Of a stretch of 7,316 bases of DNA, positions 1 through 6,093 are shown in pieces. The stretch is taken from positions 1 to 7,316 of the forward strand of contig JAAYHP010000357.1 in the NCBI GenBank assembly GCA_012735355.1. The letters run 5' to 3'. Made by a program: the position numbers and the translations under genes. The DNA is from Lysinibacillus sp. (GTDB lineage: Bacteria; Bacillota; Bacilli; Bacillales_A; Planococcaceae). Each line of letters opens with the position of its first letter. The stretch's first letter is position 1. A model generated the notes under the pieces. That model searched no databases, was not told where the DNA came from, and saw only the letters and a program-made list of their open reading frames with translations.

Positions 1-1093
1 CAGTTTCTGTCATCCACCATGTATCGTGAATGCGGTGACCTAACTCACTCATACCCCAACGAATAACTTCTGGGTTTAAAGGTTCACCAACGGATAACAC
101 ATGTCGTAATGTAGATAAATCGAATTGTTTTAACACTTCTGAACCTGCACCCATTAACATTCTGAATGCTGTAGGTGCACTATACCAAACAGTTACCCCA
201 TATTCTTCGATTGCGCCGTACCAGCTTTCTGGGCTAAAACGGCCACCAATGATTACGTTTGTTACCCCATTTAACCAAGGTCCGAAAATACCGTAAGCTG
301 TACCAGTTACCCAACCAGGGTCTGCAGTACACCAATAAACATCATCTTCGTGTAAATCTAACACCCACTGAGCTGTTTGATATTGTTGGATCATTGCATT
401 ATGAACGTGCAAAACTCCTTTAGGTGCACCTGTTGAACCAGATGTATAATGGAGTAACATTCCATCTTCTCTATCTACCCAAACGATATCAAAATGGCTT
501 GAAGCCTCTTTTAATCGTTTGTTAAAGTCTATAATCTTGTCAGTTTCTTCAATATTCTCTCCAACTAGAAATACTCTTTCTAATAGCGGTAATTTTTCTA
601 ACGGTACCCGCTTTAACAATTCCGGTGTTGTGACAATTGCTTTGGCTCCACTATCGGATAGGCGGTCATATACCGCACCTTCCATAAATGCCTCAAATAG
701 TGGACCTACAATTACTCCCATTTTCAATGCGCCGAGAAGTGAGAAATAAAGCTCTGGTGATCTTGGCATAAATACGAATAAACGATCACCCTTCTCTAGG
801 CTTGAGTATTGCTTAAACACGTTTGCTGCTTTGTTTGTCATGCGTTTCATATCATTGAACGAGTAAGCTTCTTTACGCACCCCATCACTAAAGTAAAGAG
901 CTACTTTGTTCTTCAGATTTGTCTCCGCATGACGATCAATCGCTTCATAAGCTGCATTTAGTTTCCCCGTTGTATACCAACTAAATGCTTTCTCCGTTTC
1001 TTTCCAGTCGAAATTAGCATATGTTTCATCATAATTTTTTAAATGATGTTCCCCGTGAACAACTGCTAACTTCTCAGAAATTTTCATCCCCAT
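1..1093 (-). CDS. acsA: Acetyl-CoA synthetase (acetate-CoA ligase, AMP-forming), 5' part only
   Basis: Activates acetate with ATP and CoA to acetyl-CoA through an acetyl-AMP intermediate, in the cytoplasm. The 364 codons present are open throughout and resemble B. subtilis AcsA (about 572 aa) along their length. The N-terminal stretch with KLNAAYEAIDRHAE is at residues 44-57, the P-loop YTSGSTGAPKG at 216-226, WCTADPGWVTG at 254-264, and the adenylate-binding motif WWMTET at 359-364, right at the window edge. The C-terminal lid domain, with the catalytic lysine that AcuA acetylates, lies outside the window. The start is the ATG at 1093-1091. AAGAAAGGGG (complement of 1101-1110) sits 7 nt upstream of it, better spacing than for the in-frame ATG two codons on. 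It diverges from acuABC, whose products control its activity. The family assignment is secure; substrate preference for acetate rests on similarity and context. Confidence 0.96.
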   Translation of the reverse strand, partial: MGMKISEKLAVVHGEHHLKNYDETYANFDWKETEKAFSWYTTGKLNAAYEAIDRHAETNLKNKVALYFSDGVRKEAYSFNDMKRMTNKAANVFKQYSSLEKGDRLFVFMPRSPELYFSLLGALKMGVIVGPLFEAFMEGAVYDRLSDSGAKAIVTTPELLKRVPLEKLPLLERVFLVGENIEETDKIIDFNKRLKEASSHFDIVWVDREDGMLLHYTSGSTGAPKGVLHVHNAMIQQYQTAQWVLDLHEDDVYWCTADPGWVTGTAYGIFGPWLNGVTNVIIGGRFSPESWYGAIEEYGVTVWYSAPTAFRMLMGAGSEVLKQFDLSTLRHVLSVGEPLNPEVIRWGMSELGHRIHDTWWMTET

Positions 1094-1261: not shown

Positions 1262-1894
1262 ATGCATCATATTAAAAACTATTATTGTACAGAGCTAGAA
1301 ACAAAACATGGTACAGTCTTTGTGGAAGGACCTGTCCCACCTCAATCTCTAAAAGAATATGATTTTCATGAAGATTTAGTAGCTTTTCGTCCTCCGGAAC
1401 AACAAAAGGAAGCATTAATTGAAATTGCTGGATTAGAAGAAGGAAGAATTATTATTGCCCGTAACGGAAATATGATTATTGGATATGTTACTTATCTTTA
1501 TCCCGATCCATTAGAAAGATGGTCGGAAGATAAGATTGAGAACATGCTAGAATTAGGTGCAATAGAAGTGATTCCTTCTTATCGTGGTACAGGGGTGGGG
1601 AAAAAAATGTTGGAAGTCTCTTTTATGGCAGATGAAATGGAAGATTACTTAGTTATCACAACTGAATATTATTGGCATTGGGATTTAAAAGGAACTGGGT
1701 TAAATGTATGGGATTATAGAAAGATGATGGAAAACCTAATGAAATCGGTCGGTTTCCAATATAGTGCAACAGATGATCCAGAAATTACTTCACATCCTGC
1801 GAATTGTCTAATGATTCGTATAGGGAAGCGAGTCGGCCAAGAAACGATGGAACGATTTGACAGATTGCGATTTAGAAATCGATATATGTATTAA
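1262..1894 (+). CDS. acuA: Acetoin utilization protein AcuA, GNAT-family protein acetyltransferase
   Basis: In B. subtilis AcuA transfers acetyl from acetyl-CoA to the catalytic lysine of acetyl-CoA synthetase and inactivates it, giving feedback control of acetate activation. The protein here is 210 aa, the same length as B. subtilis AcuA, and closely similar throughout. Examples are DFHEDLVAFRPPE near residues 34-46, GYVTYLYPDPLERWSE at 74-89 and TTEYYWHWDLKGT at 133-145. The GNAT acetyl-CoA-binding motif A is R108-G-T-G-V-G113, following the strand LGAIEVIPSY, and the C-terminus IGKRV...ERFDRLRFRNRYMY is also conserved. The protein is soluble, with no signal or membrane segment. It is the first gene of the acuABC operon and diverges from its presumed target acsA. 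acuB starts 15 nt after its stop. Function is inferred from the family; nothing is missing from the motif. Confidence 0.95.
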   Translation: MHHIKNYYCTELETKHGTVFVEGPVPPQSLKEYDFHEDLVAFRPPEQQKEALIEIAGLEEGRIIIARNGNMIIGYVTYLYPDPLERWSEDKIENMLELGAIEVIPSYRGTGVGKKMLEVSFMADEMEDYLVITTEYYWHWDLKGTGLNVWDYRKMMENLMKSVGFQYSATDDPEITSHPANCLMIRIGKRVGQETMERFDRLRFRNRYMY

Positions 1895-1909: not shown

Positions 1910-2557
1910 ATGATTGTAGAGCAAATTATGAAAACAGAAGTATATACACTTTCACCGAAAGCCTCATTGAACGATGCATTACAACTAATGAATGAAAAAG
2001 ATATTCGTCACATTCCCATTGTCGATGATGATGAAAAGGTGATAGGAATCATCACTTCCCATGATGTAAAAAACGCCTTACCTTCTTGTCTGAATGATGA
2101 AACAAGCTGTTCTATATACGATACGCCGGTGGAAAATTTCATGGTGACAGATTTAATATTTGGCCATCCCCTCGACTTTGTTGAAGATGTTGCCATTACT
2201 TTTTATGAATCAAAAATTAGCTGTTTACCGATTGTATCTGGTGGCAAACTTGTTGGTATCGTCACGACATCGGATTTACTATATACCTACATAGAACTGA
2301 CGGGAGCCCACCAGCCATCATCTAAAATCGATATACGTTTACAAGATAGAGTTGGTTCTTTAGCTGAAGTGTTAGCTGTCTTCAAAGAACATCATGCCAA
2401 TGTTTTAAGCGTATTAGTTTTTCCTGATGCTGAGAAGAAAAATAGCCGTATTATTACTATTCGTGTTCAAATGATGAATCCGCTACCAATTATAAAAGAT
2501 TTGAGAAAAGAAGGCTTCGAAGTTTTATGGCCAAACTTACCAGGGGTGAACGTATGA
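1910..2557 (+). CDS. acuB: Acetoin utilization protein AcuB, CBS-CBS-ACT domain protein
   Basis: A 215-aa cytoplasmic protein of regulatory build, about the length of B. subtilis AcuB. CBS domain 1 is at residues 1-58 (MIVEQIMKTEV..., IRHIPIVDDDEKVIGIITSHDV). CBS domain 2 is at about 74-130 (VENFMVTDL, ISCLPIVSGGKLVGIVTTSDLL). A C-terminal ACT-like domain spans about 138-208 and starts IDIRLQDRVGSLAEVLAVF. CBS pairs usually bind adenine nucleotides and ACT domains small ligands, so a sensor role towards AcuA, AcuC or AcsA is plausible, but the molecular function is not established in the family. AAGGGGGA at 1897-1904 lies 5 nt before the ATG. The last four bases, ATGA at 2554-2557, overlap the acuC start, which suggests translational coupling. 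Confidence 0.93.
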   Translation: MIVEQIMKTEVYTLSPKASLNDALQLMNEKDIRHIPIVDDDEKVIGIITSHDVKNALPSCLNDETSCSIYDTPVENFMVTDLIFGHPLDFVEDVAITFYESKISCLPIVSGGKLVGIVTTSDLLYTYIELTGAHQPSSKIDIRLQDRVGSLAEVLAVFKEHHANVLSVLVFPDAEKKNSRIITIRVQMMNPLPIIKDLRKEGFEVLWPNLPGVNV

Positions 2558-3720
2558 AAAATGCAGTGTTTGTGTACTCACCTGAGCAATTAACATATAA
2601 ATTTTCGGACAATCATCCATTTAACCATAAAAGATTAACATTAACGATGGATTTATTGAAAAACATTGATGCATTATCCGATGAAGACATTATCCCAGCT
2701 AGAATTGCAACGGATGAAGAAATCGAACTTGCCCATGATCCAAAATATATTGAAATTGTAAAAAAAGCTGGACAAGGTCTTATTACTGAAGAACAAGCTG
2801 AGCCTTATGGAATCGGAACAGAGGATACACCCATTTTCAAAAATATGCATGAAGCTAGCGCCCTCTTAGTTGGTGGCACGTTACAAGCCGTCGATTATGT
2901 CATGCAAGGTAAAAGTAGGCATGCTTTAAACTTAGGTGGTGGACTTCATCATGGATTCCGCGGAAGAGCAAGTGGATTTTGTATATATAACGATAGCTCT
3001 GTTGCTATTCGCTACATGCAAGAAAAATATAATGCTAGAGTTCTCTACGTAGATACAGATGCCCACCACGGTGACGGTGTACAATGGACTTTTTATGATG
3101 ATCCAAGCGTTTGCACCTTCTCCATCCATGAAACGGGAAGATACTTATTCCCTGGTACTGGGAGTATTAGCGAAAGAGGAAATGGACAAGGGTATGGTAC
3201 ATCCTTTAATTTTCCTTTAGAAGCTTTTACAGAAGATGATAGTTTTTTAACAGTATATGAAAAAGGCTTACGGGAAGTAATTGAATTCTTTAAACCCGAT
3301 GTAATTTTCACACAAAACGGTGCAGCCGCCCACTATTTTGATCCATTAACTCATTTAAACGGCTCGATTAGAATTTATCGTGAAATACCTAAACTTGCTC
3401 ATGAATTAGCCCACGAATATTGTGATGGACGATGGATTGCAGTAGGTGGTGGAGGTTATGATATTTGGCGGGTTGTACCAAGGGCATGGGCATTGATTTG
3501 GCTTGAAATGAATGATCTTCCGCTTCCTACAGGTCCGCTACCCGAAAATTGGTTAAATAAATGGCAAGAGGAAGCACCTGTACCGTTAATCCCAACGTGG
3601 GAAGATCCGAATCCATTATTTGAGCCAATACCAAGAAAGGCGGAAATCGAAGAGAAAAATGCCCAAATGTTGACAAAAGCTCTACATATTATTCGCACAG
3701 AAAAGAAGTCTATTATTTAA
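2554..3720 (+). CDS. acuC: AcuC, class I HDAC-family protein deacetylase; third zinc ligand replaced by Ala
   Basis: AcuC removes the acetyl group that AcuA places on acetyl-CoA synthetase. The 388-aa product is a full-length arginase/deacetylase-fold protein, similar to B. subtilis AcuC (about 387 aa) end to end. Visible catalytic residues are the His pair H132-H133 in GGGLHHGFRGRASGF, zinc ligands D169 and H171 in DTDAHHGDG, relay residues D167 and D174, and the transition-state tyrosine Y302 in GGGGYDIWR. The motif that gives the third zinc ligand, normally NGADAHYYDPL, here reads NGAAAHYFDPL. Residue 258 is Ala, codon GCC at 3325-3327, one base from GAC. By family knowledge this should impair or abolish metal binding, unless it is a sequencing error. 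The start at 2554 is chosen over the in-frame ATG at 2527 because GGGGTGA (2543-2549) precedes it, it overlaps the acuB stop as ATGA, and the family begins there. Confidence 0.93.
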   Translation: MKNAVFVYSPEQLTYKFSDNHPFNHKRLTLTMDLLKNIDALSDEDIIPARIATDEEIELAHDPKYIEIVKKAGQGLITEEQAEPYGIGTEDTPIFKNMHEASALLVGGTLQAVDYVMQGKSRHALNLGGGLHHGFRGRASGFCIYNDSSVAIRYMQEKYNARVLYVDTDAHHGDGVQWTFYDDPSVCTFSIHETGRYLFPGTGSISERGNGQGYGTSFNFPLEAFTEDDSFLTVYEKGLREVIEFFKPDVIFTQNGAAAHYFDPLTHLNGSIRIYREIPKLAHELAHEYCDGRWIAVGGGGYDIWRVVPRAWALIWLEMNDLPLPTGPLPENWLNKWQEEAPVPLIPTWEDPNPLFEPIPRKAEIEEKNAQMLTKALHIIRTEKKSII

Positions 3721-5007: not shown

Positions 5008-6093
5008 TTATGCATTATATTCATATTGTTTCATGAATTTTTGGATTTCATTGTAGAATTCATCGAATTGTTGTAAGTCCATTTGTTGTTGTGAGTCAGA
5101 TAATGCTACAGATGGATCTGGATGCACTTCCGCCATTACACCGTCTGCACCGATAGCAATTGCTGCTTTCGCACATGGTAATAATAAATCTCTACGTCCT
5201 GTTGAGTGAGTAACGTCAACGAATACAGGTAAATGAGTTTCTTGTTTTAAGATTGGAACAGCTGAAATATCTAACGTGTTACGAGTTGCCTTTTCATACG
5301 TGCGAATTCCACGTTCGCAAAGCATAATGTTTTCATAACCTTTAGACATAATGTATTCTGCTGCATGAACAAATTCATCAATTGTAGCAGCTAAGCCACG
5401 TTTTAATAAAACTGGTTTATTCGTTTGACCAACAGCTTTTAATAATTCAAAGTTTTGCATGTTGCGGGCACCGATTTGAATAACATCAACGTAATCTAAA
5501 GCTTCCTCAATATGAGCTGGTGTGACAATTTCAGTTACTACAGCTAAACCGTATTCTTGTGAAATTTGCTTTAAAATTTTTAACCCTTCTAATCCGAGAC
5601 CTTGGAAATCATATGGGGATGTACGTGGTTTATAAGCACCACCACGGATAAATTTTAAACCTTTTGCTTTAATAGATGCAGCTACTTGTGCTGTTTGTTC
5701 ATAAGATTCTACAGAACATGGACCAAAAATAAATGTTGGTTCACCTGTACCTATTTGTTCTCCATTAATTTCAATAATTGTGTCTTCCGGCTTTTTCTTA
5801 CGTGAAACTAACAATTCTTTTTTCGTATCTGCTTCTAATTGTTTTAAAGCAGTTTTAAAGATTTGTTTAAAAATATAATCAACCGTCATTTGATTTAACG
5901 GGCCTTTATTATGCTCTTTTAAAAGGTTTAACATGTGGCGTTCACGCAATGGATCATATCGTGTAACCCCTTGTTTTTCTTTAATTTTTCCGATTTCATT
6001 CACGATCTCTGCTCGTTCGTTAATTAATCGAAGAATTTCAAGGTTTAGTTCATCGATTTGTTGACGAAGCGCTTCTAATTTTTGCTCACTCAT
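5008..6093 (-). CDS. aroA: Bifunctional chorismate mutase / 3-deoxy-7-phosphoheptulonate (DAHP) synthase
   Basis: Catalyses condensation of phosphoenolpyruvate and erythrose 4-phosphate to DAHP, the first shikimate-pathway step, with an N-terminal chorismate mutase domain that gives feedback sensing in this subclass. (aroA is the B. subtilis name; elsewhere it is called aroG or aroF.) The 361-aa product matches the B. subtilis enzyme (about 358 aa) throughout. The AroQ-type mutase helices are residues 1-90, with R10, R27, K38, D47, R50 and E51 at the expected places. The type I-beta DAHP synthase barrel is at about 105-345, with GPCSVES at 124-130, [11 protein letters not shown] at 155-165 and metal ligands C126, H296, E322 and D333. 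The start is the ATG at 6093-6091, with GGAGGAGG-type sequence (complement of 6104-6113) about 12 nt upstream and the family start MSEQKLE. The in-frame ATG at 6156 lies in the leader and is rejected. Confidence 0.96.

Follow-up and report, generated by a model that had tools for sequence, protein, structure and literature searches.

Alanine at the third zinc-ligand position of AcuC in a fragmented draft genome is probably a consensus error

The locus described here raises the question whether an AcuC deacetylase with alanine at the position of its third zinc ligand is a natural form of the enzyme or carries a wrong letter in the deposited sequence. In the ordinary system, following the sections of PMC13121692 and PMC13039410 that describe it, AcuA acetylates AcsA and so switches AcsA off, AcuC takes the acetyl group off AcsA with a zinc ion bound by two Asp and one His, and AcuB inhibits AcuC depending on adenine nucleotides. 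The two papers, both from 2026, seem to differ in their sections on Ap4A, with enhanced AcuB inhibition of AcuC in one account and a conformation unable to bind AcuC in the other. AcuC of Bacillus subtilis and Geobacillus is class I HDAC-like and falls in the bacterial sub-cluster 2c of PMC11532494.

The window, i.e. the whole stretch of DNA that was analysed, is the entire contig C238 of 7316 bases in assembly G000, a genome of 2.79 million bases in 641 contigs. At one end, on the minus strand, positions 1..1093 hold the N-terminal 364 codons of acsA, truncated by the contig end, with an open frame aligned to 73 relatives and a name given from its position and the published operon order. It is followed on the plus strand by acuA (1262..1894), a GNAT acetyltransferase gene with a PF00583 match of 31.2 bits against a cut-off of 20.7, which was aligned with 110 relatives and whose name also rests on operon order, and by acuB (1910..2557), with PF00571 and PF01842, the 3' end of which overlaps the start of acuC. 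At residue 80 of AcuB (2147..2149, plus strand) the window has Thr, either an error or a natural change, and Lys is found in 39 of 39 aligned relatives. The acuC gene (2554..3720, plus strand) has 388 codons and a stop with the frame open throughout, and encodes an HDAC-fold deacetylase with a match to PF00850 (Histone deacetylase domain) of 296.3 bits against a cut-off of 27.9, and of 297.1 bits in another search. NCBIfam assigned no family to AcuA or AcuC; Pfam gave families for both. The minus strand also carries ccpA and a chorismate mutase/DAHP synthase gene, and codon 253 of the latter (5335..5337, minus strand) encodes Tyr, possibly through another error, as opposed to Asn in 54 of 54 aligned relatives. 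By gene order only, acuABC adjoining the reverse-strand acsA is the operon arrangement of AcuC systems.

The encoded AcuC resembles that of Bacillus subtilis and Geobacillus in the acsA (reverse)-acuA-acuB-acuC order and in having the PF00850 HDAC domain with tandem His, Asp-x-His and Tyr, but differs from them, in this one assembly, by Ala258 instead of Asp as the third zinc ligand. The same motifs are present in HDLP of Aquifex aeolicus (PDB 1c3p and 1c3r), matched with 190 bits over residues 13–324, whereas the third ligand position of HDLP is Asp. Counting from the ATG at 2554, the letters at 3325..3327 on the plus strand are GCC, that is Ala258 within NGAAAHYFDPL, just as the first-pass annotation had read them. 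Its assignment of this codon, probably a consensus error, to the third zinc ligand is likewise correct, since Ala258 aligns with the ligand Asp of HDLP (LGTDP stretch) and of HDAC6 (GFDA stretch), and its counterpart in Geobacillus AcuC is D259, which the residue list of PMC13039410 names as zinc-coordinating together with D170 and H172 on the basis of a predicted model. Shifted by one, D169, H171, H132, H133 and Y302 of the window fit the same list. The residues described earlier as intact (H132, H133, D167, D169, H171, D174 and Y302) and also D263 are present and are invariant in 229 relatives, among them the zinc ligands Asp169 and His171, the tandem His at 132–133 and the catalytic Tyr302; position 258 is Ala as deposited, in an assembly that also has in-frame stops in essential genes. 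The alignments to HDLP and HDAC6 and D259 of the PMC13039410 list rule out D263 as the true ligand, in agreement with the earlier view that it is a separate residue.

Within NGAAAHYFDPL, the four nearest relatives agree with the window at every position but 258. This argues against the idea that the metal site is completed by a water or by some other residue, so that AcuC would be active with Ala258; some bacterial deacylases are functional with a different ligand, namely His to Asn in cluster 3 in the examples presented by PMC11532494, but that exchange sits at another ligand, and we give such a variant hardly any credence. The Asp codon in the four closest relatives, among the loci from genus genomes, is GAT, two steps from GCC, and this counts against an error in the sequence. 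The single A-to-C step proposed in the first-pass annotation requires GAC as the original codon of the species, and the GAT of these four relatives speaks against it.

Asp is found at position 258 in all 321 aligned relatives, made up of 212 proteins (taken from the best 120 of 7362 and the best 120 of 156 matches) and 109 loci (29 from genus genomes and 80 of 145 from a wider locus set), which are partly from the same genomes and are all close relatives. A first set of relatives, overlapping with these, has Asp in 229 of 229. The departure is therefore real in the deposited text and not the drift of a loose site. None of the 321 varies at any of the six catalytic positions, 258 included, indicating that natural change at these positions is rarer than one in 321. 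Among 25 genus genomes, the DNA pattern for NGAAAHY is confined to the one that contains the window and is absent from the 24 others. Fixation of Ala258 among related AcuC proteins, which the first-pass annotation had considered, is thus not borne out, and with Ala at 258 in none of the 321 relatives a ligand loss common to the lineage is ruled out for the genomes examined. By AcuC, the closest named relatives among the matches listed are Ureibacillus thermosphaericus and Ureibacillus sp. FSL K6-2830, both at 90%.

Over the rest of the protein, no other residue departs from those conserved at a level of at least 95% in the 229 relatives. Together with the open frame this rules out old gene decay, in line with the lack of decay noted from the sequence, and a single changed position fits one stray error and not an old pseudo-enzyme. 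An intact second copy of AcuC was not found either; there is one PF00850 match and one DNA match in the assembly, which is given as 90.6% complete. The dN of the window's AcuC against its four nearest relatives is 0.06–0.09 and that among those relatives 0.04–0.06, but dS is likewise higher for the window than among them, and is saturated or without an estimate (row L007, misaligned at 27% identity, was left out), so that with both values raised the dN/dS comparison says little.

These values bear on the proposal that a catalytically dead AcuC has been selected and kept as a partner of AcuB, AcsA or acetyl-lysine, which we regard as very improbable. The gene is strongly conserved apart from codon 258, by dN and by the 95% positions, but the same conservation is expected of an ordinary enzyme with a wrong letter. 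Furthermore, the change is common to no relative examined, and the other catalytic residues counted are all kept, although a selected non-enzyme would not need them. A known case of this kind, the pseudo-deacetylase domain of human HDAC10, is also an HDAC-family domain and is described as catalytically inactive in the passage of PMC11532494 concerned; compared by that description, the AcuC of the window is unlike it in departing at one catalytic residue. Equally improbable is the fuller version, in which this Ureibacillus relative would keep a zinc-free, dead AcuC that binds AcuB and acetylated AcsA while a sirtuin reactivates acetyl-CoA synthetase.

As rpoB and gyrA are essential genes, they were selected for a check of the assembly, before any stops had been seen. 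In G000, rpoB has one in-frame stop on contig C130 (L229, 4716) and gyrA has two on contig C161 (L230, 404 and 1568). A class-V aminotransferase-like gene has one interior stop on contig C100 (L228, 2581), and a parC match has one at the start of contig C327 (L231, about 9). There are no in-frame stops in the rpoB and gyrA rows listed for the 24 other genus genomes, where for G002, G005 and G021 gyrA is represented only by matches below the family cut-off. When rpoB was compared codon by codon in 25 genomes and gyrA in 21, the relatives compared had sense codons for different residues at the stop sites, and an altered genetic code is therefore ruled out as the source of the stops.

Segments had to span 80 columns or more with an identity of 65% or higher, and a stop counted as interior if 20 or more columns separated it from either end of its segment, which makes the parC stop an edge case. 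In the parts compared, over non-redundant loci, G000 has four interior stops in 14,159 codons, and G009, a finished relative, has none in 13,664; edge stops in the same count number one and six, respectively. This count replaced an earlier one with overlapping reference loci (4 in 16,014 versus 0 in 21,355) and left the weighing of the explanations unchanged. The six stops that the G009 control showed before the edge rule were read as frames extended upstream of the true starts or as an antisense frame. One TGA in an ABC-transporter match on contig C10 of G000, among the matches listed, was excluded because the gene is possibly a true pseudogene. Errors of the frame type were rejected, as no gene is split over two pieces on the G000 contigs, one of the tests requiring pieces of at least 80 columns. 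G000 and G009 also have a stretch (L240 on contig C109 of G000, and L215 at 10352–11831) with proteins 99.6–100% identical where other genes there show 85–95%, possibly a recently shared mobile element.

In the genes of the window 5.3% of all single substitutions lead to a stop and 73% to a missense change. Four to five stops per 14,159 codons imply 1.5–1.9 missense errors per gene of 388 codons, and 0.63–0.79 in the 163 strongly conserved columns of AcuC, where one is seen; the expected number falls to 0.20 without the rpoB, gyrA and parC segments (1 stop in 11,216 codons). Given this predicted missense load, and the absence of variation at the catalytic positions in the 321 relatives, an error is a likelier source of Ala258 than natural change. 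We infer that base errors gave rise to the stops of rpoB and gyrA, that codon 258 was altered in the same way, and that the organism itself has Asp there. Stops within genes thought to be essential, in the same draft, make Ala258 a likely sequence error and not a new kind of enzyme. Judged from sequence comparison, the codon is thus probably a consensus error in a fragmented draft, and the AcuC of the organism would be an ordinary zinc-dependent deacetylase acting on acetyl-CoA synthetase.

Some observations run against an error. The stops are unevenly distributed, with three of the four interior ones in rpoB and gyrA, and there are none in seven class I tRNA-synthetase matches of G000. Nor is there a large excess of unique missense changes in rpoB and gyrA of G000, which have 4 and 6, respectively, with one relative reaching 12 and 8. 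The open frames of the window have no interior stop, and only 4 of 739 columns conserved at 97% have an odd residue (AcuB 19, AcuB 80, AcuC 258 and DAHP synthase 253). When 90 sequences, the window among them, are ranked from the lowest such rate upwards, the window comes 52nd, so odd residues are not generally in excess in it; in L033, a close relative, they number 3 of 737.

The main rival is that the sequenced strain has really lost the third zinc ligand through a recent point mutation. AcuC is then predicted to be a poor zinc binder with little or no activity, and the Sir2 protein of this genome would likely take over the deacetylation of AcsA, so that the loss is tolerated. That a sirtuin may be present had been guessed in the first-pass annotation, and a Sir2 gene with an open frame of 239 codons was indeed found on contig C543 of G000. 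The second HDAC-like gene that it had envisaged was not found in G000, which has the one PF00850 match. A distant second HDAC-like gene (31–34% identity) is present in 4 of the 24 other genus genomes, namely G006, G007, G010 and G023, and two genomes given as complete, G020 and G024, have no AcuC match. SrtN of B. subtilis can also deacetylate AcsA according to the relevant part of PMC13121692, but the same part reports that B. subtilis needs both SrtN and AcuC at low acetate, and the mutation would be one seen in a single genome, with in-frame stops in rpoB and gyrA, and in none of the 321 relatives. We consider it unlikely, although it keeps an appreciable share of our belief because the window is not error-ridden, the tRNA-synthetase genes are free of stops, there is no missense excess, and the relatives carry GAT.

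Of the alternatives set out in the first-pass annotation, a base error or recent mutation is thus supported by the stops in rpoB and gyrA, by the change being unshared and by the lack of any other altered 95% position, while a selected pseudo-deacetylase, seen in one genome, has no positive support. The presence of a sirtuin and the B. subtilis parallel do not show selection for a dead AcuC; such selection is unsupported, there being one residue in one draft. A literature search at the level of listings gave no report of a natural loss of the Asp at position 258 in AcuC. Before a single catalytic mismatch in a draft of this kind is taken for a new enzyme state, it should be set against the stop codons found in genes such as rpoB and gyrA. 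A genuine and fixed Ala258 would offer a natural test for a role of AcuC beyond catalysis in the AcuA-AcuB-AcuC switch.
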